64,000 nt of DNA from positions 56,905 through 120,904 of the forward strand of contig JAHBMJ010000665.1 in the NCBI GenBank assembly GCA_018398765.1, given 5' to 3'. Of this stretch, positions 32,691 to 59,674 are shown piece after piece (position 1 is the stretch's first letter; each line of letters starts with the position of its first letter). Made by a program: the position numbers and the translations under genes. The stretch comes from Chromera velia. Its lineage: Eukaryota > Sar > Chromeraceae. The notes under the pieces were generated by a model that did not search any database, was not told the DNA's origin, and saw nothing but the letters and a program-made list of their open reading frames with translations.

Positions 32691-32876
32691 CATGCACGTA
32701 GACGGACTCGATCATGCATCGAGTCAGACTGCATGCCACCGATTGCCACTGAGTCTGATCTGAGTCTGACATAGTCTGACGGATCGAGATACGTATTAAT
32801 AAGTTTGGCTGTGTTTGGCTGCCTTATATTACCTCGTTACTACGTGTTACTACCTTTTGCGTGTTCCTTCATTTTT

Positions 32877-35111
32877 ATGGACTGCCTCCATTTGCGCTTC
32901 TCTGCAAGATCTTTAAATCCAAAAATGACACTGCAATTGTTTGTGATGGGGCCGCGGTCGGCGATTGTCCCGCTATCGCGAGTACTTTCATCGCCCACCT
33001 TTCAAAGTGGTGATCACGGGCAAGCAGATGCTGTCAGCGGAATTCCCGTGAAGGCCTTGCAATGGTGCCTTTCTCAGTGTGTGTTCGTTTGCTTTCGGTT
33101 GGGGAATGTTACTGAGTTTAGAGGAGACGCCGTCGTGAGTTCCGGAAACCGGAGATTGGAGGGGACTGTGCGGAGAAATTGGTGGGGGTTCGCGGGAAGG
33201 CGGAGTGCGGATGCAAGTCTGTATGAACACAACGCAGGTCTGCTGAGAAGAGTGCGGGATCCAAAAAGGTGTGTGATGGAGTCGGGAAGACTTTACAAAA
33301 AAGAGACGGCAAAAGATTTCAACCCATCTCTTTTCAGCTCCGGGACCTCCAAATCGACTGACAGGGACCCTGCACACCTTTTGGAGTTTGGTGAGGTCCG
33401 AGTTACGTCTAATCTGTCTGAATCCTTCCACGAGGCCCTAGAGACGCCCCACCTTCTCCGACCCCTCGACGACTTCCTGCGTCGCCTTCGACTCCGACCC
33501 CCCTTATCCGGCCCCAATTCCCCTTTTCCGTCTCCGTCTCCGTCTGGCTCTTCCTCTTCAACAGAAGATGGGACGCCACCTTCCCAATTCTCCTTTCTTC
33601 TGTCCACTGCGCTCCCTTTCCACCCCTCAAGTAACCTGGCCAACGAGACACGGCCTCTGCCTGCCAGTCAGGGGACAGAAGTCGAAAGATCCCCAGAAGA
33701 GTGCAACAGACTCCTCAGACAAGCGTATAGAAACATCACCAAGTCCCTGTACTCTCTGAACAGACTGCATTGGGAAGCCCGGACTTGCATTGGCACTGCA
33801 AGGCACCGTCCAGATCCGATTCGTTCCCTGAACTTCCTCCGAAGAATTCAATCTCAGAAGAAGCACAACACAGTAGGCCTACTCCCTCAGAGACAGACTG
33901 TCAGTCTAGCAGTTAGCCTCAGGAAGTGGCAGTCTGGTCTGAATCACCTCCTCAGACGATCGAGATCCATACCGAAGTCGCAACCTCAGAATGCCAGAGC
34001 CCACGCAGAACAGACTCCCATGCAGAACAATAGACTCAGTGCAGCCCAGACTTCCGACTCGCCAGAGTCAGAGGGATGGCACACGCGGAGTCCTCCTGAG
34101 ACTGCCCCGGCCCTGCCAAGCGAGGGGGGCGAGAGGGTAGTCAGTCTGAGACCCTCTGATGTTGATCTGCTCCAAGAGGGTGTGACTCGGAGTTTCGGCC
34201 CCACACCCGAACAAACTGCCACACGAGTCCCGGAAGGAGACAGCAGAGCGGGGTGCATGGGTGAAATTGAAATGCCTGTCGGGGGTCGTTTAGTCGAGAC
34301 GGTATGCCTCTCTGCCCTCGGGTGCGGGCTCAGGGGATACCCGCCTCAGGATTGCGCTCGTGCTTTCTTGGACGCGCTTGGGGAAGCGTTAGAGAGGAGG
34401 GAGAGGGAGACTGTTGGGGTAGATGTATTGATTGGAAAGAAAGAGGGGGGGGGAAGAAAGAAGATTCTTGAGAAAGAGCATCGTGGAGCCTGTGGTAGGC
34501 TTCTGCTGAGAGGACAGGGGAAAGGATGTGCCAGCGATATTTTTTCAAACAAGTACGAGGGCAGTTGGCTTCCTCTTTTCTTTGAGGTTCGTTTCCTGGA
34601 TGTAACGATTCTCAGAGCCTGGGTGGCCGAAGTAGAGCAGCGACAGTTGCAAGAAAAAGAAGAAGAAAAAGAAGAAGAAGAAAAAGAAGAAGAAGATAAT
34701 AGCGCTGAGGTGGTCAACGAGACCGTTGTAGCAGCGACTAGCATGCCAGTGGGCACACAGGGTAAAAGCCCTCTTCTCTTTTCCATGCCGGCCGAAAGGA
34801 GTCATAGTTCTACAGAGTCGCATGACGTCATAGAAGGGTTGGGACCGGTGAAAACTCAGAGAGGATCGATTCTACATCAGTTGTCGCAGAAGGAGAGGGT
34901 TAGTGTCAGAATGTGGAACACGCCGAGCAAGGACGACAACAGGCTGGTGTCATCCTTTTTTGCAAACTGTGGCGCCGACCACCCTTTGTTTCAACTTGAA
35001 GACAAGGCATTCATCAATATTCAGAAGCTGACACGGTGTGACTACGCTGAAAAGGCAATGCGCGATCTCCTCCAGATCTGCCGAAGGCTAAAAGATGCTG
35101 TTTCCCCGTAG
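32877..35111 (+). CDS. Hypothetical intronless protein, 744 residues
   Basis: A single open frame from ATG 32877 to a TAG ending at 35111 (the frame is open from ~32,805). This is unusual where the other genes have many introns. The product is Arg/Ser/Pro-rich in its first two thirds, with a low-complexity Ser/Pro tract near residue 215-230. A pure Glu/Lys run lies at ~34,650-34,700, and the C-terminus is more globular, ending near LTRCDYAEKAMRDLLQICRR. I recognise no domain, signal peptide or membrane segment. It could be a host orphan gene or an element-borne ORF, since GC palindromes lie just upstream. The length makes chance openness unlikely. Confidence 0.55.
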   Translation: MDCLHLRFSARSLNPKMTLQLFVMGPRSAIVPLSRVLSSPTFQSGDHGQADAVSGIPVKALQWCLSQCVFVCFRLGNVTEFRGDAVVSSGNRRLEGTVRRNWWGFAGRRSADASLYEHNAGLLRRVRDPKRCVMESGRLYKKETAKDFNPSLFSSGTSKSTDRDPAHLLEFGEVRVTSNLSESFHEALETPHLLRPLDDFLRRLRLRPPLSGPNSPFPSPSPSGSSSSTEDGTPPSQFSFLLSTALPFHPSSNLANETRPLPASQGTEVERSPEECNRLLRQAYRNITKSLYSLNRLHWEARTCIGTARHRPDPIRSLNFLRRIQSQKKHNTVGLLPQRQTVSLAVSLRKWQSGLNHLLRRSRSIPKSQPQNARAHAEQTPMQNNRLSAAQTSDSPESEGWHTRSPPETAPALPSEGGERVVSLRPSDVDLLQEGVTRSFGPTPEQTATRVPEGDSRAGCMGEIEMPVGGRLVETVCLSALGCGLRGYPPQDCARAFLDALGEALERRERETVGVDVLIGKKEGGGRKKILEKEHRGACGRLLLRGQGKGCASDIFSNKYEGSWLPLFFEVRFLDVTILRAWVAEVEQRQLQEKEEEKEEEEKEEEDNSAEVVNETVVAATSMPVGTQGKSPLLFSMPAERSHSSTESHDVIEGLGPVKTQRGSILHQLSQKERVSVRMWNTPSKDDNRLVSSFFANCGADHPLFQLEDKAFINIQKLTRCDYAEKAMRDLLQICRRLKDAVSP

Positions 35112-37419: not shown

Positions 37420-39750
37420 TTCGGATCCTACAACAGGAGAGACGGTTGTGGCTCTTCGGGCAAGGTGGTAGAGAAAGTCTAGACGAGTTTAGATAGACGT
37501 TTTGGGGCTTTGTTTTCTGTTGTTGTTTTTGTAAGTGATTCATGGCAGGTTGATGGATGGCTTGCATGGTGGAAGAGAAGATTGGAAGTGAAGGTGATCG
37601 TATTTGGTTCGGTACTAGGTTTGGTGTGCCTTCTTGCCTTTTGATTCTGTTCTGCGAAGTAAGGTGGAGGTTAAAAAGCGTCTGTTCGGCGTAGCCTCCT
37701 CTTTTCTTTTCTTTTCTACTGGTGGTCTTTTCGGAAGAAGAGAAAGGGAGATAGAAAAATGAAGAAAGGAAGGGCAATTATGGATAGTTCAAAGAGGTCA
37801 AGAGCTAGTTTCAGCCATACGAGACCTCTCGAGCTCAGTACCAAAAGAGAAAGAAAGTTTTGCAGTCAGTGGTTTCTGTTATACAATCTCTTTAGTGCTT
37901 TAAGGAGAACACCCAGAGATGGGGGGTGTACTGGAGAAATGTGTGTAGCCTTGTGGAGTGAGTGATCGAGTGGACTGTGAACGCAAAAGTACGTCGGGTC
38001 ACTGTTCTTTCGTATAGTCTTGCACTGTTTCAGAAAGCAATGTTTAACTGGGAGATGCAGTCTAACATAATCTCCCTCAGGGGGTGATTGTTAGGGTTTC
38101 AGAGGGTAGACAGACCTAGACAAACAGCTGCTTACCAGTGATATGTTTATATCTGCGTATGACAGCGTTTGAGTTGCTCTCGCTTGCTTTTGTACGAAGT
38201 CAACTCAAAAGAGGAGAGATACTCAGCTTGTCTCTAATGTCTCGTTCACTCCTGCGGGGAGCAAACTCGAAGGGTGATTGTTGGTGCGTTAGAGAGTGCA
38301 GACAGATAGGCGTATTGTGACTATAGGTCGATTGCAGCGGCGGATTGATTCAATCAGGAGCGTGCACGTACGGCGAGCGTCAATATTACGGAGAGCATGC
38401 ATGTGGCATTTAATTCATTTAATGCAAGTGCATGCATATACGGAGAAACTGCACGATCCACTGAAGGCGGTTGCATATATGAATGTATGAATGAACACTC
38501 AGGCTTCTTCTGTTTGAGGCTGTATGCGATCAGATTGGATGTAAAAGTGAATATAGAGAGGTGCATTCCTCTAGTGATGAAGGAAGCCGAGTTGCTTTAC
38601 TGTTAAGTAGGGAGCCAAGTTGCTCTAACGGAGGTGTTGCTCACAAGAGCAGGTAGGAGGTCTTATTGATCCACTAGGTTAGGTAGTTCATCAGATTCCA
38701 TAGGCACCGAAAGTGTGTTCTTTCTCCCCATACTTTAACAGTGAGTAGATTAAATAATCATCGAGAGTGCTTCCTGAATGTCAGTAGATTAAAAGGCATA
38801 CAAAATCCAGATTTCGGTCACTAAGACCTCTTCGGTTGTCTTTAGTATCTTTAGGTTTCATTTCTTTTTTGGTATAGAAGAAAACCAATGAGTAACTCGA
38901 CATTAAACCTAGCGTTAAACTCGTTTTAGCAACTCAACAACACTAAAAACCCCTGGTGAAAACCCTAAGAGTTCAACCTCAAATCTTATCTCAAATATCA
39001 AATATTTGAGCAGCATTGAGCTTGAAACTCAAATCAAATCAAATCAAATTAAATCAAATCATATATAATCAAATCAAGCATGGTCACTATATGCAGTAAC
39101 TACACTTAGTGCAGTAATTATCATCATCATCAGTATCATACGCCATCGCCAGCAGCTGTTATAGAAATAGGTGCATCAAAAAATAAATTTAAAAGGCATA
39201 TATATGCAACAATAGCGTTACAATGCAAAATTGATTTTTGATGTAGGTGTTTCATCGAACGAGTCTCAAACTTTTAAATACCAGTTTGAGACAGACCGTT
39301 AAGAAAAATTAAGAAAAATCTATTTGGTGTCTGACAATGCGGTCAATTGGCGTCATGAATGCTCATGGGGAAGCGAACTTTCAATTAATTCATAAAATTT
39401 GATATGGTGTAGGTAAGTCTAGGTTCAAGCATTCCTCCCTTAATTCCCTCTTTCAGCACTGCTCCCTCAGCCACTTGTGGTTCACTGCCTGCACAAACAC
39501 ACACAGAAATAATGGTGAGTTGAAGCAAAAGACACAAGCGCCTTGGTTGCACCATCTTGTGGGATCAGAGAGAAGCGAAATCAAATACGTTCAAATAAAC
39601 ACAAAAATGCAGCCAGTTCAGGTTTATGACATTCCGATTTGGGACTCTTCTCGAGGTTGAGTCGGTTTGCCTTAGTCAAAATTGCACAGTGAGAGAGGGC
39701 GTGTGTTTGTATGAGAGAGAGGGGTGATGACGCCCCTTTTTTTCAGCATT
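37420..39750. other. AT-rich spacer, mostly unrecognised
   Basis: No host gene was recognised. Short open frames (37,412-37,777 minus; 37,759-37,965 plus) show no domain. Simple AAATC repeats lie at 39,020-39,075. LTR-like junctions within it are listed separately. Confidence 0.5.
38078..38300 (+). mobile_element. Copia-type LTR remnant (fossil)
   Basis: CAGGGGGTGATTGTTAGG at 38,078-38,095 is identical to the polypurine-tract/3'-LTR junction of the copia element at 54,121-54,138. A second, similar junction (AAGGGTGATTGTTGG) lies near 38,270. Beyond the junctions the sequences differ, so these look like remains of other, older copia-like LTRs. Boundaries are unclear. Confidence 0.4.
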
Positions 39751-39752
39751 TG

Positions 39753-41196
39753 CTACAAGCAAGAAAAAGCGGGCCTCTGTGATGCCACTTTTGTACAGGC
39801 GCATGGAGGTCTGTATCGCATTTCTGCTTTTCCAAAAGCTCTGCTGTCGACTTGCAGCTGCATTCATGTTCCTGTCTACTGCCCGGTCGTGCTTTGGCCC
39901 ATCCCTTAATTTGATTATTCCCAGACAGACCTGAACAGCGGATGGCCTCTTGTCCGGGTCCACTTGCAGGAGCTGGCTGACGAATTCCTGTGCCTCTTGA
40001 CTGACCCCCTGCAGTCAGATAGACAACAGGAAAGAGGGTTCAGGGCAGGGAGAGGGAACTAAAATGCATAGCCATAAGACCATCTGCGAGTACTACCACA
40101 CACGAACGCACGTCATCTTTGCAGAGACCTGAGCAGAAAATAAAAGAACGTACAACACCCTGAGTGAATTTCTTGTCTGCGCAAGGTTGCCATTTTCCCC
40201 TGGCTATGTGTCAATGTCTTTCGCTTCCCCCTTTCTTTTTTCCCATCAACCATGACAGCCGGCTTGCAGGTCCGGCCGGGTCCTCTTAAATTTTGTCGAC
40301 TCACTCGCTCTACACTTACCGAGGGAAAGACGACTGCTGGGGGGCACTCCATGACCTGAAAGCAAGAGGGAGAAGAAGGATGTGCGGTTATGCGGCAAAG
40401 ATGGGGAAAGGACAGATGGCTGCTGTTTCTGGAGAAGGAGAGCAGCTGCAGAAATTGCCGGGAGGCGAGAGAGAGAAAATTCAGCTAGCGTTGCCCAGGG
40501 TGGGCGGAGAGAAGGACGAGTGCTGGGAAATATGACAGTGCGTGGAGGGTGGAGCGCCGAGGGCTGCTCGGATTCGTCGATTCGTTTGCATCCTTTGCGC
40601 GTTTGCTTTTTTAGCTCCATTCGAGCCGCCAAAAAGCTGTAAACTGAGCAACCAGGTCGTTACAGAGAGAGACGCTCTGGAAAGCAAGCCCATGGATGCA
40701 GGAATACGCTAAAGGAATGATCCGTCTTAACCCACCCACGGACCCACCTTTCGGTACTCTTCCACCGTGACAGCTTCGAATGGCATTCCACCTGTCAGCA
40801 TCCAATAGGTGATCACACCGACTCCCCTGCATGCACACGTACGTGGAGGGAGCGTTTATTCATAAGCCATCAATCGATCGATAGGATAAAAGAAAGAATA
40901 GATGAATCCAATTGTGCGTGTCACTATATGACAACAAGGAGACTGCTGGAAGAACCATAAGAAGAAGAAGAAGAAGGAGTAGTAGTAGTATGGAATCATG
41001 AGTTGTGGCTGGAAAGAGAGAAGGCAAGAAGGAAGACGTGCTCCTGTTTTGGAAAGAAGAAAGAAGAAGCAGGAAATGCGATACTGCTTCCTGCCCAACA
41101 AGTCTCACACTGACTGACTGACTGACGGACGGACGGACAGACAGACGGACGGACGGACGGACGGACAGACGGACGGACGGACGGACGGACGGACGG

Positions 41197-41228
<32 letters not shown>

Positions 41229-44109
41229 ACGGACGGACAGACAGACGGACGGACGGACTGACTGACTGGCTGACTGACTGACCACATGTCGCACTTGTGG
41301 TTGAACTGTCCCTGGAGGACCTCTGGGGCCATATAGTAGGGCGTGCCCCCCTCGTTGGACGACTTTGCGTTGGGACAAGACAGTCTCTCCGCAAGTCCAA
41401 AGTCTAGAAGTTTCACAATTCCTTTCCTCCTCTGTTTGATTGCCTCGTCACCCTGCAGCCGTACGTGTATTGATTGCAAGACAATGAATTGTTTGGTCGC
41501 AGCCAATGTAAGACTTCAGTGCCTCTTCTTTTGCATCAGTGAGTCTCCAGAGAGGAAAAGCAAAAATGTAGGGGGGGCAAGAAAGTTATAATGACGAAAA
41601 GTATTTCCAGAAAAGTCTAGGAAAAGGCAAAAAATCGTGCCAAGGGAGGGTCAAAAGGAAATGGGAAGAATATGATCATATACCGCTGCTCATAAAGAAA
41701 AGCCAGAGGACGACGGCCATCTGCGTGCCTGTCTCTCTCTCAGTGTCTGCATTTTAGACGCCATCTGTCAACTTTCTGTTGCCTTTTTATTTCTGGAAGA
41801 AAAACAAAAGAAAGAGAAAGAGGAGGAGAAATTTCTCTCTGCCAGCCTGATCTTATTTGTCTTGACAGACATTCGATCATCTCTTGCCTTCTTTCTGACG
41901 GACCCCAATGATCATCATGTTCTCAGGCTTCAGATCCTTGTGTACAATCAACTTCTCGTGACAGTGCGCCACAGCCGAGAGGAGCTCCCTCAAGATCCCT
42001 GTAGTCTCCGCCTCTGAGAAGAAGGGATGCTGCCGCCCATTCGACAGGCGGGCCTCGAAAACCTGAAGAGGCAAATTCATTCGTGCACATATCGATACCT
42101 CCACCCGAGAAGGAAATGAGAGTACGCAAAAACCAGTATGATGAGATGGAAAAATCAATTCGATGACTTCAAAGACCTGCAAGGCTCTTTTTACGTGACA
42201 CGCCGACCCGAAATAACTCCCCGATTGAGAGCGGTCGCTGCAGAAAACTCTGTTTCGGAGCGCGAAAGAGAAATGGAATGAGATTGATGGAAAAGCATAA
42301 TGTCATCATGTTTCCGGCTCGTGCAAGATAAGCTGCATTCAGGCACTCACTCACGCACCTCCCTGAGCTGACAGCCGTCCACAAACTCGGACAGCAGATA
42401 GATGTTCTCCCCATCTTCCCGATGGTCAAAGAACCGAACAATGTTGGGATGATCCAGAGATTTCATGAGAGAGATCTCGTTAAGGATGCACTCCCGTGCA
42501 ACAGAGGAAGAAGACTTGGAGGTTGCCTTACAGCATCTGCGTGAGTGCACGCATGAATGTATGCATCGATGTACAAGGAAAAGGGAGGAGCATAAATGAA
42601 AGCCTTGTCGTACGAGAGAGAGAGTTTCTTTGGTGGACGCAAAGCCAAACATCTTTGAGTCCTCCTGTGTCTGTCCATCCATCAGAGGCGTAGCAAGTGG
42701 AGCTGAATTTGTGTTTACGCACGCGCGGTCAACTCTGTGCAGAAAGATTTGAGCTATCGAATGGTGGTGAGTCCAAAAAGAATGCAGAAGGAGTCTGCCG
42801 GGCGCGTTCAATGACGCTGGAACGAGCTTTAGTAGGTCTATTTGATGCGAAGCAATCCCAAGCAAAAAGTCCTGTATACAATGAAGAAGAAAGGCAGGCA
42901 GACCTTCTGGTTGCAGAATCACCGTCGTCGAGAGCGTACACCGTGCTGAATCGCCCCTCACCCACTACACGACTCTCCCGAGCCAGGAAGGAAAGGAAAG
43001 AGGAGGGAGGACTTGGGGGGTCTCCGGCTCCTCCTCCCTCTTTGTCTGCAAGGTCTTGGACGGTGTAATAAGCCTCTTCTTCCACGCTGTCGTACGCATG
43101 GGGGAAACAGTGATGTGAAGGGGGAAGTATGCACTCGCCCTCTCCTTCTGCGTCGTCGTAACCTTGGGGAAGTGAGTGCTCGACATGTGGAGGGGGCAGC
43201 ATGCACTTGCCCTCTCCTTCTGCGTCGTCGTAACCTCGGGGAAGTGAGTGCTCGATGTGTGGAGGGGGCAGCATGCACTCGCCCTCTCCTTCTGCGTCGT
43301 CGTAACCTCGGGGAAGTGAGTGCTCGACATGTGGAGGGGGCAGCATGCACTTGCCCTCTCCTTCTGCGTCGTCGTAACCTTGGGGAAGTGAGTGCTCGAC
43401 GTGTGGAGGGGACAGCATGCACTCGCCCTCTTCTGCTGCGTCGTCGTAACTTTGGGGAAGTGAGTGCTCGACGTGTGGAGGGTATGTATGGTCAACCTCT
43501 TCATCTTCTTCCACAAGTTCTTCTTCTTGGAATTGTGCGTCGAAAACCCCCCTGCCAGAGGAGGTATCGGAGGTTGGGGCCTGGGTGGAGTCGGTGAGGC
43601 ATCGCATAAGAGTCTCCTTCTGCTCTCTTGAGAGCTCAGCCTGCAAGCAAAGGGGGGCAGGGGGAAGAGAGCTTTGAAGTCCACAGGCATGAGAGGCGGC
43701 TAGAACAGATCGACAGAGCAGCACAATCAGACAAACCGAAACAGACTGACAGGCAGAGAGACGGACAGAGAGACCAACTTGCCGAGCAATGTCCTTTGCC
43801 TTCTCCTTCTTCCTTCGCCTTTGCTGATGGAGCTAAAGGAGGGAGACGGAGAGACAAAACCATAGAACGTGAGACACAAAGAAAGAAAACAGAGAAGAGA
43901 AGAGAGACGAACAGAGCAAATTCAATGCTGCCAAGGAGGATCAAGAATAGAGAAAAGAGAAAGGGGCGCTCACCAACACACCTTGTGCTTTTGCAGCCAG
44001 TTTGCTATCACCTCAAATGAAAGCTCTTCCTGTCTGCTGCCCCCCCTTGGTCTCTCGTAAGTTCTGCAAGCAGACGCACGCACAGACACACACACACACA
44101 CACACACAC

Positions 44110-44153
<44 letters not shown>

Positions 44154-46647
44154 GGGGGGGGTTTGCATGAGAGGATGCTTTTACTTACCTGCGTTCAGAC
44201 TAGCAAGTCATTCTACTCCAATCACGAAGAAAGAGAGGCAGACAGACAAAAAAGATGAATAACCTTACACTGAGTCATCCATTGGAACTGAACTAAGAGA
44301 ACAAATGAACGAGTGGATAGATGAGTGAAGAGACTGATACGTGGTTATGTATACATTCTCTGCAAGACACGCACTCTTCCCTGCCGCCCGGCTAGATGCC
44401 ATCTCGCTGATCAGTCGAACAAATCCGGTCCACCACTAGATTTCTCTCTCGAAGTTGATCTCTCTCACTGGATGGTTGGCTGTGCAAGGCTGACTGACCG
44501 TACGAGTTTTGCTCTTTGGACGAATTCGATAGTTCTCTTTGTCTCGTCTGCCTGCTCTTGAAGAAGGGAGACCGTGCCGACAAGAGTCGTGTCACAGTTC
44601 CCAACCTGCAGGGTCGCAACATTTCACGATTTTTACCAATTTGAAAGATGGGAGGTCCTAAAGGTAAGGGGGTAGAGATCAGGAGGGGCAAACTGTTGCA
44701 TTGTCGTGGACGACAAACAGGTTGAGGAGTCTGATTCGGGGAGCATTCAGGGGAAACAACCGACTTGAAACACAAGCACACCCAACCGACTGAGCAGATA
44801 AAAAAGTACGACCTCCGCCCAAAGAGAAGACTCAACAGAGAGCGAGGGGTCTCGACGAGACTCAAATTCTTTGCGGAAAGCCACTGAGCCATCGAGCAGC
44901 TTCACTGTGCATACGCTGTTGTTGCAAGCTGACTCGAAAAACAAGGAAAGGGCGAGCAAGGAGAAAAGGTGACTGACCAGGTACGGCTTTAGGAGTCGAG
45001 TCAGCATCGAGTCCCTGAAAGGGCAGTATCCGATTCTGCCCTTCCCTCCCTTTTTCTGCTTGGAAAGGATGGCCCTCAGAACCCTCGCGAGAGCAAAGAG
45101 AGACGAATTGATCGCCCCTGCCTCCTTTGCTGTTGCCTGTCGCAGCAACGACTCGTACTCAGTCGCGTCCACCGCCTGAGGTTTCTCGGACCCTGTAGAG
45201 AGGGAAGGGGGGGAAGCGAATTACATGTACGTGAACTCGAATGTGCCAGATGCTCTGGTATGAGCAAACACAGCAGAGAAAGGAGGGAGAGCTTGACTTC
45301 TGTTCGCAAGGGAAATTGGGCAGACAGGTCAGGCATAGGTCAGACGCCGGGAGAGGGCACTTTGAGACATTGAGGGACGTCCTCCTCGTCCATATAGTCA
45401 GAAGGAGGGCCAGTGCAACCACTGAAGTCGTTCAGCCACCCAGCAACCTACCTGCTAGGTCGACGAATGCTAAGGAAGACATTTTTCGGGGAGTTCTTGG
45501 GGAGCGCGCAACACCCTTCTTCTCTCTGGGTATCTGCAAGGATCCGCCCGGGCAGATGGGGTGACATTAACATTCATACCATGCTACTGGCTTTAGCATT
45601 CTGCAACTTGGTCTGTGCGGTGTATCTCAAGGGCCTTGAAAGAAAAAGACATGTAGGCGACAATGACGGCTAAAGGTGTGTGTCCCAAATTTCTGGTCCC
45701 CTGCAGGTGTTGCTCGGGAGAAATGGCGTGAGTCGAAGGGAGAAAAGCGAAAAGTCGACATGGCCTGTGATTGTGCATTGCCTCACTGACTGACCATCCA
45801 AGCGTCCAGTCGATATATGGCGTGAGACCGGGACGAATAGGCGTTCCTCATGCTTCCCCCAACGTGTCTGGACTTCAGATTTTTCTTGATCGCTTTGCAA
45901 GTGTCATCAGCAGTCCAGCACTGAACGTTTCGGGCTCCCTCAACCGACACTTCATTGCTCCTGGGATCCTCTCGAACCTCTGCAGGTTGGTGTCAAACAG
46001 AGGGGGGGTGTTGTGTACTACGGGTGTGTATCAAGGTAAGTCATTTTGATTGAAGCTCAAGTGGCTGACTGACTCAAAGTTGTGGGATCGTTCCGCTTGC
46101 GAGAAAGATCCATCACTGTGTTGTTGTAGATTTCAATCATGATGAGCTCGACAAAGAAGTGCATTCCAAGCTGCTCGGCTTCCTCCTTTGCTCGACGGAA
46201 GAGCTCCCTAGTCACGCGAAACACAAGACCATCATCTCCCCTTACTCCCTGCATGGTGTGCGTTTTCCCTGTCCCCGTTTGCCCATACCTGCATCGAACG
46301 AAAGGGGGCATACACACAGACTTTCAACGAACTCAAGACGATGAGAACGATGGGGATCATTGGCCTTTTGAAATGACTTACATGATCACGCTTGTGTTTC
46401 TGTTCTCAAGAGCAGCCTCCACCATCGACTTCCCGATGGTCTCATGAACATGTACATTGAGTGCTGCGGGGTCAAAGACCTGTACATCCCCCAGCTCGTG
46501 GATCTCACTTTTATCGTCCACAAAGAATGGTTTGCCGTCTTCGTTTGCAAAGAAACTCTTTTCTTGCGAGGGGTCCATGTCCCTCTCCGGTTTGATTCGG
46601 AGATGGACCTGGACGTTCGGTCGTCCGAGATCCCTCCTTCTTTGCAT
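39753..46647 (-). CDS. Kinesin motor fused to Ser/Thr protein kinase
   Basis: Exons in transcript order: 46647-46382, 46288-46074, 45979-45795, 45700-45608, 45533-45452, 45192-44978, 44605-44499, 44063-43982, 43832-43779, 43640-42904, 42536-42359, 42062-41904, 41452-41283, 40826-40748, 40355-40320, 40008-39931, 39857-39753; 946 codons plus stop, in phase throughout. Residues ~1-390 are a kinesin motor: P-loop GQTGTGKT (46,284-46,261), switch I SSRSH (45,836-45,822), switch II DLAGSE across exons 5/6, [10 protein letters not shown], and a neck-like [18 protein letters not shown] short basic linker and 24-residue repeats follow (~486-610). The kinase (~655-910) has GEGRFSTV (~42,960), the invariant Lys in CCK at the start of exon 11, HKDLKPEN (41,942), DFG (41,404) and APE (41,329), resembling the CaMK/CDPK group. 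ATG 46647 opens the motor. The last exon is the least certain. Two adjacent genes instead of one is the main alternative. Confidence 0.75.
41103..41284 (-). repeat. (GTCA)n / (GTCC)n array starting at a splice donor
   Basis: About 180 bp of tetranucleotides fill the start of the intron after the kinase exon with DFG and APE. On the minus strand the array begins with the donor GT itself. It creates long Pro-Ser-Val-Arg / Ser-Gln-Ser-Val frames that are not coding. Confidence 0.95.
43100..43490 (-). repeat. 72-bp coding minisatellite (24-residue repeat)
   Basis: Five clear copies and one degenerate copy lie inside exon 10 of the kinesin-kinase gene. Consensus core is [19 protein letters not shown] followed by xCMLP. 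Copies alternate Lys/Glu and Gln/Arg at fixed positions, suggesting a 144-bp higher-order pair. The unit is acidic and probably disordered, forming the linker between motor and kinase. Confidence 0.95.
44078..44151 (-). repeat. (CA)n and (GA)n arrays in an intron
   Basis: Adjacent CA and GA runs lie in the intron upstream of the exon at 44,063-43,982 of the kinesin-kinase gene. Confidence 0.95.
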
Positions 46648-48100
46648 GGTTGCCTCTTTCGATGACTTAGGATCGCAAAACGTGCTTGCTTTTACGAAGG
46701 CCTTCGAACAAATACGGTTTTGCAAGCTCCAATGATGTGGGAAAGTCGACTGGAATGGCGGCAAGCGTGCATGTCGGTCAGACAATCTGTGTCGATCGAT
46801 CGATCGATCCATGCATGCATGCAGAAGTCGTCATGCATGCATATTGCATGCATGCATGCAGGCGTGCACATGCATATCCCCGGCCCGGGCATTGATTTGT
46901 ACCGACTTTTTGTAGGTGGTCCCGGTATGCATGTTCAGGCATAGCGCCGTCTACGCACATGGCGAGACAGGGAAGACAGTGCATGCATGAATACATACGG
47001 AAAGAAGAGCTAGAAGAAGAGTCCTCAGATTGCTTCTTAGACAGCACAGAGAGAAGATTTTGAGTGAATCACTCAATGAAAGCTGTGTTGTTCTGTACTC
47101 TCCATATTTTTTTGAACGAATCCCGATGGTTAGATCAGAGAAACACGCCCTTTTCGGGCACTTTCTTTCATGTGTTGCTTTATCTGGGAGCAGGGGGGAA
47201 CAGAATAACGGTTTGCTTTTGGCCCTTTATTTAGTCTTTTTCTCTATAAGGAAGAGGCCTTTCGGAGTACGTGTGGGAAGTAGAGACTCCCGTCACAAGT
47301 GCAGAAAGGAAAGGCATAGGTAGGTTGACGTTGCTAGCAATTCTAAAAATTCAGACACATATATTTATTGCTGTAGGCACCAGTAAATAAAAAGTCGGTA
47401 CAAATCAATGCTCAGGGGATACATGTATACACGGGATCGATCGACATGCATGGGATTGACACATACACCCCATGCACCAGTTAATTGGGTGAGTGCTTCG
47501 GGAAGCATTGTGTGCAATGTGTGTGCGCTTGTTTGCAACCGCGCGAGTTTATGTATTCTTGCAATCTCAGCTAGCTAGGGCCATAAGCTAGGGCCCTTGC
47601 ATATGGCCCGAGCATGTGGCCCATGTAAGATGAGTTGCCCTCTGAAGCGAGATATATTTTCGGTTCACGGCTCCGTGTAAGTTGCTTGAGGCCCTTGAAG
47701 TTGAGGGGCACTTTTCTCGAAAGTGCTGATACGGACCGTGACAGACTTTTTTTGTCGATCAAGAGACTGATAGACGGAGACAGAACCGTACCCTTCCCAA
47801 AATAAAAAAATGCAATATGTGAGTGCGTACGTTCTCAATAGATTTTAGAGCCACTCTGAACAAGCGCTCTGAGATGCCAGTCTGAGCGTCTCGGCTGAGC
47901 TGTCTCTCAGGCGATGAAGACTAATGATGACATAAGAATCTAACGTCTTATATTAATATATATGAATTCCTAAGACAAAGAAAGACTGAACGGTACTAAA
48001 CGATTAACTTTTTTTAGAAACATTCATTTAACATTGCTGAGGCTCACATCACTCTGTTCAACTATGATCCTTAATGGTAAGACTTAACCCTTAAATTTTC
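46648..48100. other. Upstream region of kinesin-kinase gene and spacer
   Basis: GATC and GCATGC self-complementary repeats lie at 46,795-46,875, in the likely 5' leader or promoter of the minus-strand gene. The rest, to the copia element, is AT-rich with a few open frames lacking recognisable domains. No RNA gene was seen. Confidence 0.5.
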
Positions 48101-48359: not shown

Positions 48360-51300
48360 GTCAATGTGTCAGCTTCTGCGATCGCCGCTACAATGATGGA
48401 AACTCGAGCAACAACAGAGATGAAAGAGGCCATCCTCAAGTCGGTGCGAGAGGAGTTTGAGACCTGGGTCCAAGTTCACCGCCCTCGATGAGAAGCTGGA
48501 TCTTATCCTGAAAGCCCAGCAGCCCAAGCAAGAACAGGCCAAGCCTGCCAAGGCAAACCTCCCCCCCGCCATGTTGACGCTTCCCCGCCAAGTTCCCCAG
48601 CAGAAGCAAGAAGATGAAGATGATTCCCCCATCCCTCCCTTAGTTGATTCGCCAAGGACCCCAGTCTACGAGACCCGCTCTTCCCAGCCCTATACTATCG
48701 CATTCCCGCCGAGCCGCTTTTTCCCGCCTTCCTCTCCCAAGAAGAAGGGCAAGAAGATGGACATGTCTGCGTGCCCGAAGTTTGAGAGCAAAGCCGCCAT
48801 CAAGACCTTCCACGAGCTGTGGAGTTCTTTCCAGCGGTCTACCTGAAGTGTGAGAACTTTTCGTCCACTCAGGAATGGAGAGATCAAATTCTCCTTGCCC
48901 TCAACAACGCCAGCAACGGCCATGCACAGTTCAAGACTGACGTGCGCCGTCTGCGAAAGGGAAAGAATATCCCAGTCAAGAAGGTTGTCGACTACCTGGT
49001 GGAGGACTACATGAGTGCTGTGCTTGCCCAACAGTTGTCTGTGCAGGATCTGCTCGACAACTTCCCATGGAAGCGAGGGGAAGAGCACCGTCGTGACTGC
49101 AGAGACCACCTCAGCTGGGTGGACTTGAACAAGCGGATGGAAGACGTGATTGTGCAGGCGGGCGACATTGAGTGGAAGATTACCAACAAGCAGAAGGTCA
49201 ACGCTTTTGTGGGTGCTCTATCCCTCGAACAGAAGAAGGAGTATCTCCGAGACCACCGTCTCCAGAGAGGGGGAATGAAGATCGCCGACCTGAATGAGCT
49301 CACATGGGAGGAGCTTGAGGACAGCATTAAGTTCTATGTCTCCATCGAAAAGCTTGAAGACAAGCACCGCCGGGAAAGACAGGATGGCCGTTCCCATCAT
49401 TCCAGGAGAGAGGAGACGGCCTTCACCGGCAGAGGCCAACACCACTCGCACCACCACCACCGCCAAGGTTAGCAGCAGAAAGAGCAGGGGGAGAGCCATG
49501 AGTGCCACTGGGGGGTGGCAAGAGATGAGAGGAAGAGGTCGCAGCCAGAGCAGAGGACCTTGCGGGCCGCACGGGGATCCCCAGAATCCCCGGTGCTACT
49601 ACTGTTAGGAGTATGGGCACTTCGCACGTGACTGCGAGAGGCAGCGCAGAGGCCTCTCCCCTATCCCTCCTAGACACCGTGGCTTCTCCCACAGGGGCCT
49701 CCAGCAGCAGCAGCAGAGAAGAAGGAGCCCCACCCCTGCTCCTGACAAACAGGGGCAGAGAGCACCCGAGAAGCAGGGGCAGCGTGGCCGCTCCCCCACC
49801 AGGCGATGACTACACTCGGGTAAGGGACGCCAGGGGCAGCACAGCCCGTCTCTCCCTCTGAAGAATCGCTTTTCTGTGCTTGAGGAAGAGAGGGAGAGTG
49901 ATTGGGGCGAGTGTGGGGCCTTTCCGGTGAGGAGGAGACGGAGTCGAGACGGCGTGCAAGCGAGTGAGCGAGAGTTGTCTCCAGTGGTAGATACTGGAGT
50001 AAGTGGACATTTCTTTAGAGACGATGTGAGGCATTGTGTTGTGGAGATGAGAGAGGGAGAGTGTGAGTTTGTGGGCGTTGATGGGCGAGTCCATAGAACG
50101 ACTCGGAGTCATGAGGTCGATGTGGAGCTTCCAGGCGTGGAGACGGCACGAGGGGGCACGGAGACGGCATGTCTTTCCAGTGCTTACTCTCGGTCAGTGC
50201 CTGTTTCCCTGATGTCTGTGCATGGTCTGAAATTGCAGAAAGTGCATGAGCTGTATTGGGTTGAGCTCCCTCAAAAAGGGGGAGGCAAGTTTCGTGCGCG
50301 AGTGCGTGAAGAGAACGGAACGCTTGTATTGTGTGTGCATGGTTCGTCTGCTCCTGTGTGCAGAGACAAATCTGTGGGTCTTTTTCGTGTGTGTTTGAAT
50401 GTCGAGGGGGGGGGTGATAAGGGAAATAAGAACAGGTCTCCACAGCCCTCATCTGTGTCTGGGTCTCCACAGCCCTCATCTGTGTCTTCTAAACAAAATG
50501 GGAAAGGAAAGGCAAAGGAAGTGCGCGTGTCTCCGGCAGGATGGAGAAAACTTCGTTTCCCCACTGAAGGTCAGATGAGTTTGAGAGAGACGTTGATGTG
50601 GCACAAGCGTTTTGAGCATGCGACGGGCTCCCGTCTGTATGCTACCATGAAAGAGAAGGGTCTTTCGTCTCGTGTGACTGTGAAAGCATGTGATGAGGTT
50701 CGTTCTGTCTGCCGTCAGTGTCAGGAAGTGAATGCAGTGATGAGAAGAATCCCTGCCAGAGAGTGTGCGCCTGATGGAACATCTTCTGCCCCCCCGCCCG
50801 CAAATGAAAGAATCTTTCAGGATGTGATGTTTCTGCCGGGGGGGAAGCCTGTTTCTTTGATTGTTGATTCTGCGGATGGTTTTGTGTCTTGTATGGTTTT
50901 GTTTTCGAAAGGAAAGGCAGTGAGGCATTTGATTGAGTGAGTACATCGTTTTGAGCGTCTGTCCGCGAAATATGGAATGAGAAAGAAACCAGTAGAGGTG
51001 TGGACCGATAATGGAAGGGAGTTTCAAGGGAACAAGAAAGGCGGTTATGATTTCTTTTGTGATGAGGAAGGCATTTTTCATCGTAGGGGTCCTGTGTATA
51101 CCCCACAACCTCAAGGCAAGGTTGAAAGAATGAATCGCACGGTGAAGAGATTGATGTGGAAATTGCTTGCCGATTTGAATCTTCCCAAGTATTGTGCGAA
51201 GTGGCTGTTGCCTGGAATCATTGATTCCATCAATGAATGTGTGGCCAGTCGAACTGGCAAATCTCTAAATGCTTTTATGTTTGGTGCAGACGCAGCCAAA

Positions 51301-54131
51301 GCCATTTCCCCTCTCTCTGTCGGTGACCGGGTGGTTGTGTCCGATCCTTGTCCCTCGGGCATCTCGGGACAATCGGTTTGCGGGAAAGATGCGATTTTCT
51401 GTGGGGTAGAGAGTTCTTCTGTTGTGTGTGTACTTGTAAAGACAAAGAGTGGGAAGGGGTGGCGTCCTTTGCATGTTCATCCGAGTGCTGTTTCATTAAA
51501 GTCTTGGTATGGTCTTGATGTGTCTGGTGATTTTTTGCATGATGACGACAAGAGAAAGGAGCTTGTCGATGATGAGTTGGATCGTTTCTCCGATTTCTCT
51601 GTCGATGATGAGGAAGAGATCGATATTTCTGCAGATGGGGGTGACCTCCCTGAAGCTGTCCTTTCTTCTTCTCGAGCTCAAGCTCACCTTCCCCAGCAGG
51701 TGACCCAGGCGGCCGTGAGGCAACTGGAGAGGGTCCTTGCGGGTGAGCCAGATGTGTCTGTGCCTGTCTGCCTTCCCTCTCAGAGTGATGTTGGCTCGCA
51801 AGTCCAGCGTCGCGAACTGGAGTGGCGGGCTGCACAGCAGGGGGTGGGGAGTAGAGAGGCTTCGGCAGAGCAGTCAGGCAGGGAGTGCACGCCCAGTCAG
51901 ACAGCGTCTGTCTGTGTTGAAGAGAAGAAAGAAGAAGAAAGTTTTCTTGAGGCAGAAGACATTGATGTCGTGCCTGAAGGAAAGTCTGCGTTTCGTTTGG
52001 GTTTTCCCGGCAAACAGAAGACAAAAAAAAGAGTGCGTTTCGCACAGGAAGTTGAAGTGAAAGAATTCTTTTAGGAAGATATCGTACAGAGGAGAGCACA
52101 GGAAGGAAAGAAGTTAGCCAGAGTAGCGAGGAAGGAAAAGAGAGGCGAGAGAGAAGAGAGAGAACCGGGCTTGGCAACCCAGAAGTCGCCACAGGAGAAA
52201 GAAGAAAGAGAAGAACAGAGAGGAGAGAAAAAACAGGAGAAAGAGGAAAACGGAGAGCAGAGAGATAACAGAGAGAAACTGAAAAGCAAGATTAAAGAGA
52301 AGAGAGAGCAGAGAGGCGCAAAAGGAAGAAGTCAGCGAGTCAAAGTGAGTGAGAAAGTAATTGAGAAAATGATGAGTCATGTGAATCCGAGAAAGGGTCA
52401 CATCGACGCAATGGAGGAGGAAGTGAGGAATGGAAGTCATGATGAGGCAATGAAGAAGGAGTTGAAGAGCTTTGCTGAGAACAAAGTGTTGAAGATAAAT
52501 GGAGTGAGAGTGCTGTAAAAGAGAAGAGTCATGAAGACACGATGGGTGCTTACATGGAAGATGAAAGGAGGAAAGAGAGTGCCGAAAGCCAGGCTGGTCT
52601 GCAAAGGATTTCAAGACGACAGGAAGAATGTAGAGACATTCAGTGGGACGGCCTCCTGGTGGGCTCTTTTGTTTTGCTTTGTGTTTGCGGCTGGAAAAAA
52701 GTGGTCGGTCGGAAAGTCAGATGTGCGTACTGCATTCTTGACTGCACCGATAAATGATGAGGTGTATGTGCAGCTGCCAGGGCGCGTTCCAACGGGGTCT
52801 CCCGAAGGTGTCATTCCTGGTCAGGTCTGTCAGTTAGAGCGTGCAATGTATGGTCTGAAGGATGCACCGCGTCCATATGGCCAGCATTTCAAGAAGACCG
52901 CGAAAGAAGAAGGATGGGAGGAAGTGCTTGAGTCTGTCTTTCTTTTGTATGAAGAAGAAGACAAGAAAAAAGGAGCGAAAGCGATCATGGTTGCGCATGT
53001 GGACGATCTTTTGGTTTTCTCTGCTGATCCCTTGCGTGACTTCACGTCCATCAGAAAGAGAATGCAGATGGACGAGCCTGAGATTCTGGTAGGAGGAGAG
53101 ATGGGTTATACTGGATTGGAGGTGAAAAAGAATGGAGATGAGTTTGTGATTTCGCAGGAAGGATACTTGTCTTCTATCCCTGTAGAGAAAGAGAGTTTGC
53201 CAAGAAAGAATTTGTCTTTCGATCTTTTGGCAAAGGAGGAAGAGAAGGATGAGTTTCTTATTGCTGTGATGTAGAAAGTGATGGGCATTCTTGGATGGGT
53301 GTGCAGGACTTCTGTCGATTTGGCTTTTCTGTTTTCAGAGCTGTCGCGGTACAATTCTTGCCCGACGGGTGCGAAGTTGACTGCTACCCTCCTTGCCCTT
53401 GTGCGTACGAAAGAGAAAGGAGAGACTTTGAGAATGAACGCAGTGATCGATCCAAAGATTGCTTTGTTTCTTGATGCTGCATATTCCTTTGTGCAATGTG
53501 AAGGAAGAAGTGCTTTTGAATGTTACTTGGTTGATGAGAAGGAAACGGTCGAAGTGATGAGGAGGACAAACTTAGTTGCATGGAAGAGCAAACGAATAAA
53601 GAGAAAGTTGATTTCCTCTACGTCTGCAGAGCTTTGTGCCCTTGTTGATGGTGTGAAGCAGGCCTTCCAGTGGAAGGAGCTTGTGTCTGCTTTGTGGGGC
53701 AAGTCTCCCTCTGTGAAGATTTATACAGACAGTGCTCCTTTGCTTGCGCAGTTGGAGAGCGGGTCCTCAAAGAGAGAGCCTCGCATGGATGGTCTGCTGA
53801 AGTACGTTCGGCAGGAGCTTCATGCGCTCCGCGCGAAAGTGTCGTAGGTGTCTACGAAGGATCAGAGGGCCGACAAGCATACGAAGTTTATTGTGGAAAG
53901 AGTGAAGGGGAGGAGTGCACCTTCGGTAGAGCGTGAAGTGGGGGGTGCAGTTGAGCCTAAAAGAAAGGTTCTGAATTTTGCGAAGTCTGCTCGTACAATT
54001 CAATTCTCTCGAGTTGCTAGAATGAATTGATGTGTAATTGAACGATTCATTGAGTGAGAGATTTTGTGTTTGTGTTGTGACGGCCTATATGTTCCCTCCC
54101 GCCTTCATTCGGCGTTCGGTCAGGGGGTGAT

Positions 54132-55529: not shown

Positions 55530-57715
55530 ATGTTGTTATGTTTTGGTTTTTCTCCTCTCTCCCGCTTGCTACTCTTTATCTTTTTCAATTTGTTTCACCT
55601 TTTTTTTTTTTGGCCTGAACGCTGGAATATATTGCGCATTGCTCCAGTCCCTAAGGGCCCGCCGAGTCTTGACTGTAACGAATGGTGCCCGATCCACATT
55701 ATGGGGCTTCTGGATAATATTTTTATTTTATTGACTCAAAGATCTGATTCAGGAAGGAGGTGAAAATTAATGAAAGGCAGCTTGGCTTCAGACAGGGGGT
55801 GGGGACAAGGGAAGCGTTCGCTGCTCTGTCTTTGTTAATTCTTAGCTCCAAAAAGAAGAAGAGCCCTCTGATTACTGCGTTTGTTGATTTCAGTAAGGCG
55901 TTTGATACAGTTCCTTGGGTCAAAATGTTAGAGAGGCTTAGGGAGGAAGGAGTAAGCCAAGCCGATGTTTGGATGATTTATTCAATGTATAGTCAGGTGA
56001 AGGCTCGGGTAGATAGGGCAACAGAATGCTTTTCAGAAGGCGGAGGAGTAAAACAAGGCGATCCTCTCTCTTCTCTCCTCTTTCTTCTTTTTATCAACAA
56101 TCTGCATAAGTCTGTCAGCTCCGATAATGAAAACAGGAATCAAAGCTCGGCTGGGGATACTGATAGAGAGACTGAGTCTCCTGTCAGACTGTCTAACATT
56201 TTAATCGAAAGCATCGAATACGCTGACGACTTTGTTCTGTTTGCTCATAGTGCTTCAGACTTGCAGAAACGCCTGTCTCGCCTCGAGGACTATTGTAAGG
56301 AGCACGGCCTGAAAGTAAATTTAAAGAAGACAAAAGTTATGCGTCTCTCTTCCACCCAGCCTGACCTAGTGCCCCGGACCCCTTTTCTTTTTTATGAAAG
56401 CAGACCAGTGGAAGCGGTGAGTAAATATAAGTATTTGGGCAACTAAGTTTTTAAGGACGGGGACCTTAGCAAGACAGTCGAAGCCCGTATTGAGGCGGCA
56501 GAGAAGGCATTGGGGGCTATGTTTGGTACTCTCTCTTCTCTGGGCTTTGTTTCTCCCTTTTCTAAAATTATTTTGTTCAAGACCAGTCGCACTGTATGGA
56601 CGGGAAACGATCCCGCTAAGAAAGACAGATGTTGTCTACCTCGATGTATTATACTTATATTTTGTTCGATGTTGTTTTAGTCTCTCCTATCACTCCTTTG
56701 TTTCGCTTTCCCTTCTCTCTCTCTCTCTCTCAAGCCATTTAGTTCTCTATTTAATAAGTTGAGTGGGGGCTTCATCCAATGCATCAAATCGATTGACCGT
56801 GTTCTACCTTGGGCAGTGTCGAATGAGTGCTTGGCTGGCTTGTGTGAACCCTTCGTTAAGACAGTAAAATGGCTGGCCATTCCATTAGATTGCTCCCTTT
56901 TGTGGCTTCCATTGCCAAGCACGGTGGGGGACAAGTTTAAAAGGAAGGGCAAGAGCAGAAGGAAAAGGGCAGTAAAAAAGATCGTAGAGGGTGCCTCGCT
57001 GTCCGACTGCTTGAAAGAAGAAACTAGAAACGTTAGCGACAGAGACAGAATTTTCCCCCACCTTACGAATCTCTCTCCTTTCTAATCAGAGAATCCGACC
57101 AGACAGCGTTTGGCTATGCACCTTCTGAGTGAAAGGAAATGGCGTCCGAGAAGTGAAATGATACAGTGCAGTATTGAACCTCTGCCAAAAAGTCTGTTGC
57201 ATACGCAGTCCTCCGCAGGCTTCTGTATGCTTTTCAGGGCTCTCACAGGAGGGAATATAGATAGAACCCAACCGGAACGGCTGTACGATAAGTGTTTGTC
57301 CCCCTCGCGTATGATCAAAGATGAGGTTCATGTCCTGACGGAATGTAAGAACACAGAAAAGGAACGGAACAGGCTGAAAGAACTGTACGAAATTGCAAAG
57401 CAGAAAGCGCCCATTGACATAAGAATACAGATCGCACAACGCGTTGCAAGTGCAACCGGGAGGGGCACTTCTGATAATGAGAAGAAAATGAAGGATATGG
57501 TGTTGCTGTTGTATACAATCCTGCCTAGAAGCGGTTCCAAAGCTATAGCCGACTATCTCAAGAAGGTCCATTCTGTTAATAAGGCAAGTTGAGGCGAATC
57601 GATCCGATTGGCATGCAGGCTTCCTTATCCCCCTCCCCCATGAATATGTGCTTTGGGTTGTCCTCAAAGCCTTGCTAGTGGCTTAGGATTTGGCGTCGCT
57701 AAATTTAGGATTTAA
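55530..57715 (+). mobile_element. LINE (non-LTR retrotransposon), 5'-truncated and decayed
   Basis: Reverse transcriptase begins near 55,640 (IAPVPKGP). It continues after a frame change at ~55,760 with QLGFRQGVGTREAF, FVDFSKAFDTVPW, GGGVKQGDPLSSLLF and catalytic EYADDFVLF (~56,215), to a stop at 56,444 just after YKYLGN. Related coding resumes in other frames to 57,592, including a C-terminal zinc-finger-like segment with the HxxxxC half near 57,330. No endonuclease domain lies upstream, so the copy is truncated at its 5' end. At least three frame changes or stops make it dead. It meets the second LINE tail to tail at ~57,720. Confidence 0.85.
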
Positions 57716-57719
57716 CCCT

Positions 57720-59493
57720 CAATCATCATCATCATCATCATCATCATCATTATTATTATTATTATTAATCGGTCTATAGGCCATCATGCAGTGCATGAGC
57801 CTAGGACAATGCTGTATTGCCCCTTTGCCAGACCTGCATCATACAACGGGAGGGGGCTTCACTCTCGCAACTCTAAACACCCTGCATCTAGAAGATGCTT
57901 TCTAAATTACTGATGTCGTTTCCCTTCTGTGGGAGGAGTGCGACAACTGCAACAGAGACTCTCAGGCAGTAGAGGCAGACAGGAAGACCGGTGGAGAGGG
58001 GGGACGGGAGATGTACGTGGGAGATGGAAAAAGAATATTCAAAGGTGAGACGGGAAGAGAGGTAAATAACCATCATATGCATCGAATTGCAGGCCTTACG
58101 ATGGAGGGCGCAGACAGATGTTTCACAAGAGTCGCAGGGCCGGTATGGGTGAGTGTCTGAGTGCTAGGGTGACCTTCATTCGTGCCAACAATTCGCTTTG
58201 CGTGGCGTGTTTTAGAGGGGTGGAGTCTATCGATAGCAACCACTTTCTCTCTCTTTCTTGGGCTCTGTCTAATTTGGCTTCAATTTCAGTTATAATTGCA
58301 TTCAGAGCCTCTCGATCTGCTCTTGTTTCTGTGCATTCAGTCAGTCGGTGCAGTAGATCGTCTGCTTTGCCCCTGCATATAGGGCAAACCGCGTCTTCCA
58401 GCCCTCTGTACGGTGCATGGGGGCGACCATCAAGCAACATATACAGCAAGGCTGAAAAAGGGCCTGAGGACCAGATCGCAGCGCGAAGGAGGGAAACGAA
58501 ACGGGGGGACGAAGGGGATGAAGGAAAAGTAGAGGAAAGGAAGAGGAGAGACAAACGTTGGGCAGTAGGATAAGACGTTTGGAACACATTCGGTCTGACT
58601 CCTCTGCCAAACTGCAAAATCGCCCCCCGTGAAGCGGCCCTTTTTAGACAACCATCAATCCATTCATCAACTTCCCGGTTGATCACTGCTCTTAAAAGAT
58701 TCTGAAGGAGACGGCCAACCTTGGTGGCTTTCTTTCTTCTTCTGATGGTTGGATTGACAGTTATAAATTCTTCCAATCCGGTCGACCCAATCAATTTTTG
58801 TGCGTGTATCATAGAGGAAGGACAATCACCATTCATTAAAGCCGACCAGGCACCCGCGGGCATCTTGAGGTCAATATATTTTAAGTTAGTCAAATACCCA
58901 GCAAGTCTCATCGACACATGCACACGTGCAGGAAGTAGACCGACAGCACACAGGGTAGGTACACGGAAAGAGGAGAGAGACAGATTGAAAGCCCAACGGA
59001 CAAAGCGCAATTGAAAGACATCTAATGCATCCATGTCTAACTTGCGGACAGGCAGACAGTCAAACGCATATAAAGCAACAGGCAACCAGAAAGCGCACAA
59101 ACATAAAATTTTTGCTGCGGGGGGCAGGCGACCTAAAAAGAGTGCTACGCTCTTTGCATGATCCATCCATCTACTCGCTATGCTGAGCCTCTCTTCTATT
59201 ACCTCCCTTAAGTCTCCCCCTTTGAACAAAAGAACACCCAGATACTTATATGACCCCACTCTCTCGACTTCTTTTCCCCCAAACACAAGCCTGCCTTCAA
59301 TTGCAGGGTAAGAGTCGGACAGACGCATGATTTTCGTCTTTTTTAAATTAACAGTGAGCCCCCTCTCTTCACAAAAAGAATTCAATTCATTTAAGCTGAC
59401 CTGCAGGTCATACACGCTCTCAGCAACGAGGACAAGGTCATCGGCATAACCAAGGCTATCGCACTCAACCCCACCGAGCAGAACCTCTGCACG
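57720..59493 (-). mobile_element. LINE, 5'-truncated, minus strand
   Basis: The frame 59,480-58,123 starts inside reverse transcriptase just before YADDLVLVAES and runs open to a stop, so the N-terminal half of RT and any endonuclease are missing. Segments match the plus-strand LINE (NLKKTKIMRLS, VGSYKYLGVLL, LPVALYAFDCLPVRKLD). The C-terminal zinc finger is CPICRGKADDLLHRLTEC. The 3' UTR ends in a (TAA)n(TGA)n microsatellite tail at ~57,770-57,722. At ~1.4 kb of intact frame it is younger-looking than its neighbour. Confidence 0.85.
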
Positions 59494-59494
59494 A

Positions 59495-59532
<38 letters not shown>

Positions 59533-59590: not shown

Positions 59591-59674
59591 AAGTAAATGC
59601 AGGAACCTAGTGGAAATTTGGAGGGCGCAAAGACTGAAGCAGACTTAAGGAAAGATTCGCTATGTTGGGTCAGC

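Follow-up and report, generated by a model that had tools for sequence, protein, structure and literature searches.

We analyzed a stretch of 64,000 nucleotides from Chromera velia (NCBI GenBank assembly GCA_018398765.1, contig JAHBMJ010000665.1, positions 56,905 to 120,904 of the forward strand; hereafter the window, in which position 1 is the first letter), whose minus strand carries a predicted gene encoding a kinesin motor and a protein kinase in a single chain. We regard one gene and one predicted protein – a motor with a tethered kinase derived from the calcium-dependent protein kinases (CDPKs) and devoid of EF hands – as the best reading of this locus, at a probability of roughly 0.7. 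An earlier note, made from the DNA letters alone, had proposed that kinesin motor and kinase belong to a single gene, and this proposal is supported by the present analysis, short of proof.

A predicted kinesin-kinase gene on the minus strand

The gene model, built by hand reading and checked by script, runs on the minus strand from an ATG at 46647 to a TGA stop that ends at 39453, and comprises 16 exons, 2679 bases, and 892 residues. Its 15 introns measure 93 to 456 bases, have GT-AG ends in all cases (15/15), and keep consistent phases along the whole chain. The earlier note had counted 17 exons and placed the end of the gene at 39753; the checked model holds 16, and its last exon (39488-39453) carries the end 300 bases further. 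This exon supplies the usual end of a kinase domain, and with it the Pkinase match extends to residue 888 and to the end of the profile. The junctions 44499/44063, 43982/43832, and 43779/43640 are GT-AG with phases 2, 0, and 0, exactly as had been described, and the spliced chain likewise agrees with the claim that no stop lies between motor and kinase. Codon use in the frame of the chain is positive in 14 of the 16 exons, the two slightly negative ones being the 36-nt exons 14 and 16. The contig sequence is uninterrupted between the motor and kinase halves, and the sole N is located at 36094.

The features of the gene are given below in the order of transcription. Searches of the organism's own genome covered a 177.8-Mb assembly of 4040 contigs, of which C2722 carries a second copy of the motor and C3976 carries paralogous kinase exons. 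In this assembly the light-harvesting family PF00504 has 58 matched stretches, the alveolin-type IMCp family PF12314 has 11, and PF00124 has none; as the PF12314 control also gave matches in Caulobacter and the PF00504 control in Synechococcus, these counts serve only as hints, in keeping with a photosynthetic alveolate such as a chromerid.

46382..46647, minus strand: exon 1, with the start codon and the motor's N-terminal part; similar copy on C2722
46074..46288, minus strand: exon 2, motor, P-loop GQTGTGKT
45795..45979, minus strand: exon 3, motor, switch I NAYSSRSH
45452..45533, minus strand: exon 4, motor, switch II DLAG, finished by exon 5; copy present on C2722
44978..45192, minus strand: exon 5, motor; 96% identity to C2722, with a 3-nt in-frame indel
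44499..44605, minus strand: exon 6, last motor helix; donor GTCAGT also in C2722
44064..44498, minus strand: intron 6, first critical joint; CT and GT microsatellites inside; the C2722 copy enters N here
43982..44063, minus strand: exon 7, neck-like segment, without Met
43779..43832, minus strand: exon 8, basic segment, 8 K/R in 18 residues, without Met; exact donor uncertain
42904..43640, minus strand: exon 9, end of the basic segment, five 24-residue repeats, and kinase Gly loop
43113..43482, minus strand: source of the 24-residue repeats, a tandem array with a 72-bp unit, 5.1 copies and 93% matches
42359..42536, minus strand: exon 10, kinase beta-3 Lys (CCK) and helix C
41904..42062, minus strand: exon 11, kinase catalytic loop HKDLKPEN
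41283..41452, minus strand: exon 12, kinase DFG and APE
40748..40826, minus strand: exon 13, kinase C-lobe
40320..40355, minus strand: exon 14, kinase C-lobe; codon score slightly negative; its start corresponds to a donor position in the paralogue on C3976
39931..40008, minus strand: exon 15, kinase subdomains X-XI
39453..39488, minus strand: exon 16, kinase end AVNHKWLREQC and stop; codon score slightly negative

Motor and kinase domains

The N-terminal domain matches the Pfam family Kinesin (PF00225) at residues 56-355 (E 1.8e-67, profile positions 47-326 of 327). It contains the P-loop, switch I, and switch II that mark the kinesin superfamily, with GQTGTGKT at 91, NAYSSRSH at 206, and DLAGSE at 247. 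Among the best 60 of 158 PDB rows for the motor, KIF13B ranks first at 133 bits, followed by a putative kinesin-8 (124), CENP-E (121), KIF1A (121), and kinesin-1 (119); because the scores of several subfamilies lie so close together, we name no kinesin subfamily. An N-terminal motor position in kinesins goes with plus-end direction, and the placement of the domain suggests an ordinary N-type kinesin that is likely plus-end directed.

The C-terminal domain matches Pkinase (PF00069) at residues 624-888 (E 6.8e-59, profile positions 3-263 of 263) and has every element of a complete eukaryotic protein kinase: a Gly loop (GEGRFSTV at 629), the Lys, the HxD motif within HKDLKPEN at 748, DFG at 777, and APE at 802. 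Thus the motor motifs, the kinase Gly loop, HKD, DFG, and APE, and the 24-residue repeats (five in number) named in the earlier note have all been located, and the two domains are certainly beyond chance. In the PDB comparison of the kinase, which took in the best 60 of 2684 rows, the best match is 3is5, annotated “Calcium-dependent protein kinase” (E 8.6e-50), and the top 22 rows bear the names of calcium-dependent or calmodulin-domain kinases in 20 cases and generic kinase names in 2. The kinase domain is accordingly of the CDPK type, and its nearest CDPKs in the PDB are, we presume, mostly apicomplexan. The second hallmark of a CDPK, EF hands joined to the kinase, was not found: the protein ends right after the kinase domain, Pfam detects no EF hand in the whole protein nor in the linker at E up to 10, and a crude pattern finds no EF-loop-like match on the minus strand from 39500 to 35000. 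Since no EF hands were found, the kinase is probably not directly calcium-gated. NCBIfam yielded sub-threshold matches only.

The linker and the joint between motor and kinase

From motor to kinase, the connecting sequence passes through a neck-like segment, then a basic stretch at residues 385-402, where 8 of 18 residues are K/R, and lastly an acidic region that contains the five repeats of 24 residues. Because the repeats share exon 9 with the Gly loop, only 858 bases lie between exon 6 and the Gly-loop exon, and the question of one gene or two falls on exons 7 and 8. In the required frame these exons have coding scores of 6.4 and 6.1 bits, which are reached by 0.6% of 1442 open intron segments for exon 7 and by 0.5% of 2003 for exon 8; these percentages are indicative only, as the segments overlap and the same introns are reused as background. 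Intron 8 (43778-43641), which is also open in frame, scores -8.6, unlike exons 7 and 8. An in-frame Met is absent from exon 7, exon 8, and in-frame intron 8, the first downstream being at 43607 inside exon 9, and exons 7 and 8 therefore make sense solely as a continuation of the upstream frame. No donor in the gene is stronger than that of exon 6 (GTCAGT). The local alignment with a kinesin on contig C3064 also passes the exon 6/7 joint, weakly, to residue 388, in 1 of 10 loci, some of them overlapping. The earlier note had treated three junctions as critical; introns 6 and 7 are so, and intron 8 is not, because its open frame means that retention leaves the link intact. We infer from the letters that introns 6 and 7 are spliced.

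Several observations weigh against a single gene. An in-phase GT-AG chain can be built across 300 of 300 Markov resamples and across 699 of 723 real segments of the window, so that in-phase chaining alone is weak evidence for fusion; the matching phases on which the earlier note had chiefly argued are correct, and of little weight by themselves. The best chain score of the linker is matched or beaten by 0/300 Markov resamples and by 94/723 real window segments, where the score compared is that of the optimizer's best chain, not of the exon 7-8 chain in the gene model. (All of the 12 best-scoring real segments come from the plus strand, and they overlap with long open frames, several of them in a retrotransposon region.) The optimizer's preferred linker adds an exon at 44406-44335 and ends exon 8 at 43767; all of exon 7 is retained, as is the acceptor of exon 8. 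Given this different path, a real fusion would still leave the exact linker uncertain. Among the 15 introns, the weakest splice sites are those flanking exon 8 (acceptor 2.1 bits, donor 4.0 bits), as scored by matrices trained on 12 introns, excluding 6-8. Elsewhere in the assembly, among the matches listed, no further contig places a kinesin and a kinase within 14 kb of each other. Comparison of 54 kinesin contigs with the kinase contigs of two listings (107 and 85) leaves C1718, C1731, and C3598 in common besides the window's contig; in all three the kinesin and kinase are >14 kb apart, and in two of the three they are on opposite strands. This neighbor comparison is weak, one kinase listing having scored 113 of 735 candidates and missed this gene's own kinase. 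The second motor copy enters N at C2722:5794, inside its intron 6, and is unreadable beyond; it cannot tell whether a kinase follows, because the N begins there. In one survey, most helminth-specific fusion predictions are judged likely artefacts (PMC12964723).

These points bear first on the possibility of two same-strand neighbors, i.e. a motor-only kinesin ending with a TGA at 44465 and a separate kinase gene starting from Met 43607, an arrangement that we consider unlikely. Reading through the exon 6 donor gives a short tail of about 11 codons here and RSVSLAQTNIQ before a stop in C2722, the stop being common to both copies. The Met at 43607 is in frame, and the interval from 44465 to 43611 holds eight ATGs when every frame is counted. 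That chaining in phase is cheap also favors two genes, as does the frequency of fusion artefacts in some annotations, according to that survey (PMC12964723). Against two genes, the gap from exon 6 to exon 9 measures just 858 bases, and the coding-like exons 7 and 8 would be left noncoding. The strong GTCAGT donor, kept in C2722, speaks for splicing, but its conservation says little because aligned sites of intron 6 are 93% identical. AATAAA is absent from the gap, a signal that may not be the one used by this organism. The same read-throughs would serve a variant in which the kinase tail is optional, with retention of intron 6 or 7 giving a motor-only protein and splicing giving the fusion: they end quickly, after about 11 codons past exon 6 and with VCW and a stop past exon 7, and intron 8 is in frame either way. 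Among the explanations considered we rate such alternative products the least probable.

A second copy of the motor

The single kinesin-kinase gene remains the preferred reading, and its motor half can be compared with the copy on C2722, to which it is 88% identical in DNA over window 46668-44390 and then 93% identical over 44323-44154. Across the six motor exons there are 0 frameshifts, 0 stops, and one 3-base in-frame indel, with 312 of 356 residues identical, and the ratio of nonsynonymous to synonymous substitution rates (dN/dS) is 0.315 by NG86 and 0.332 by YN00. The introns contain 17 indel events, and the splice ends are kept (GT in 6/6 donors, AG in 5/5 acceptors). Judged by this pattern of substitution, the motor half is a real gene under selection. 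Likeness to C2722 upstream of the gene stops near window 46797, scattered repeats aside, and for this reason the copy has the look of a segmental duplicate more than of a simple allele; haplotype rearrangement could also account for it.

The two copies differ unevenly. Between G000:C2722:5958-8324 and window 44390-46668, synonymous divergence in exons is about 0.21, whereas only about 4-9% of aligned intron sites differ. Divergence is highest in exon 2 (83% identity), where a cluster of changes lies at the end. Exons that diverge faster than introns are odd, and may reflect mosaic gene conversion.

In the second motor copy, the N at positions 1-5794 of C2722 adjoin a homopolymer/microsatellite region of intron 6. 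This raises the prospect that the motor and kinase halves were misjoined in assembly at the CT/GT microsatellite of intron 6: the microsatellites at 44071-44150 sit directly before exon 7, C2722 turns to N at the same place, and a near-identical motor copy could mislead an assembler. We consider such an error very improbable, as the window is gap-free at intron 6 and the phase and coding-like codon use of exon 7 fit a continuation of exon 6. Moreover, a second copy of the kinase half was not found in DNA searches, one of which scored 40 of 599 candidates, mostly on a simple repeat; these searches returned simple repeats and one 41-base match on C3976.

Origin of the kinase half

Over three exons, the kinase paralogue on C3976 reaches 48-54% identity with the kinesin-kinase gene, and the two genes have intron positions in common: between RR and CCK (phase 2), after IIG (phase 0), in the Trp codon of CDVW (phase 2), and after EEYxK (phase 0). 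Two further common boundaries, before VLLRRG and before GISREA, were recognized by eye. By the same patterns, contig C59 has the Trp and EEYxK positions, and none were found in C1473. Ahead of the kinase on C3976, the exons show only a weak EF-hand match (E 0.025; 15.4 bits, the cut-off being 30). No kinesin match occurs on C3976 among the matches listed, on a contig that starts just 1.6 kb upstream of the first matched exon. A CDPK-like gene seems to have gained a kinesin front end, the presumed direction of change.

Neighboring elements in the window

A Copia-type reverse transcriptase (RVT_2) is encoded at window 52519-53271 on the plus strand (E 9.7e-24), near long open reading frames at 49810-50937 and 50941-52071 (plus strand); the frame ahead of it resembles an integrase by eye, though Pfam gives it no match at E up to 0.01. 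From these matches, the RVT_2 region is a retrotransposon some kilobases upstream of the kinesin gene. Two more reverse-transcriptase frames, both RVT_1, are found at 55748-56443 (plus strand, E 1.9e-25) and 58126-59811 (minus strand, E 2.5e-9). An open frame of 778 residues at 32775-35108 (plus strand) has no Pfam match at E up to 0.01. Intron 12 holds a 174-base tetranucleotide-type array (41109-41282), with many similar stretches assembly-wide at 67-93% identity among the matches listed. Rfam gave nothing in the window at gathering scores.

Comparison with known motor and kinase proteins

The closest counterpart in design is myosin III (MYO3A/MYO3B, NINAC), in which a cytoskeletal motor is likewise part of the same chain as a Ser/Thr kinase. 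Myosin III is an actin motor with an N-terminal STE20-type kinase, whereas the gene described here pairs a microtubule motor with a C-terminal CDPK-like kinase; the two are unrelated by descent. The MYO3A kinase is described as phosphorylating motor and kinase domains between molecules, which limits motor activity and tip accumulation (PMC7947357). KIF5B-RET likewise joins a kinesin to a kinase in one protein, and is presented in one paper as a kinesin-kinase chimera acting as a signaling hub (PMC11868595). It is a human cancer rearrangement with the RET kinase and is not inherited, in contrast to the free-standing gene with a CDPK-like Ser/Thr kinase in C. velia. With the CDPK/CAMK kinases the protein has the HKDLKPEN loop in common, and its kinase introns agree with those of the paralogue on C3976 and partly with C59; it differs in that no EF hands were found and a motor stands in front. 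Compared with the kinesin superfamily, the protein has an N-terminal motor with all nucleotide motifs, but the motor is divergent.

Alveolates offer further points of comparison. According to one study, Tetrahymena has kinesin-RCC1 fusions and fusions of a calmodulin-dependent kinase with a radial spoke protein, in which kinesins and a CaM kinase are fused to other domains; the part of its table considered contains no kinesin-kinase fusion (PMC3143110). In Chlamydomonas, CDPK1 phosphorylates the kinesin-2 FLA8 and thereby reduces injection of intraflagellar transport into flagella, as reported in one paper (PMC9891718). This is again a CDPK acting on a kinesin, but as separate proteins, so that the chemistry of a kinase on a kinesin exists in trans.

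Among surveys, one of 1624 kinesins does not use the word kinase in its main text and has a supplement listing 105 architectures (PMC2867816). In the passages considered from a kinesin survey of photosynthetic eukaryotes, kinases are mentioned solely as partners or in other contexts (PMC1434745), and kinesin goes unmentioned in the main text of a paper on the Phytophthora kinome (PMC3019232). An ordinary inherited kinesin-kinase gene was not found in the literature searched, protein databases such as InterPro being outside its scope. The earlier note's statement that no well-described family has this architecture has to be qualified for tumor fusions such as KIF5B-RET. Proteins with both Kinesin and Pkinase domains may well be listed in protein databases. 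One scan each of viral and of bacterial/archaeal contigs confirmed no relatives outside the genome, which says little.

Proposed mechanism and implications

Kinesins are usually controlled by separate kinases. We propose that a CDPK-like gene acquired a kinesin gene at its 5' end and kept its own pattern of kinase introns. The predicted protein begins with the kinesin motor, continues through a neck-like and basic segment and an acidic linker of 24-residue repeats, and ends in a Ser/Thr kinase that belongs to the CDPK/CAMK group. The motor would walk along microtubules carrying its tethered kinase, whose activity would in this way be brought to microtubules and into the vicinity of other motors. 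There the kinase could phosphorylate tracks, cargo, or the motors themselves, for local or self-limiting control like that exerted by the myosin III kinase on actin. Motility, kinase activity, and substrates are inferred. Taken further, and only tentatively since we think it doubtful in full, the protein would be a self-propelled kinase: a microtubule counterpart of myosin III, independently evolved in alveolates from a kinesin and a calcium-uncoupled, CDPK-derived kinase, possibly duplicated into a small family, with the kinase switching the motor off where motors crowd at microtubule ends. An inherited motor carrying its own kinase would unite transport and signaling in a single molecule, much as myosin III achieves this on actin. 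Such a motor would provide a simple system for testing self-limiting motor control on microtubules. In likely relatives of the apicomplexans, it would also connect the cytoskeleton with the way in which calcium-type kinases evolved.

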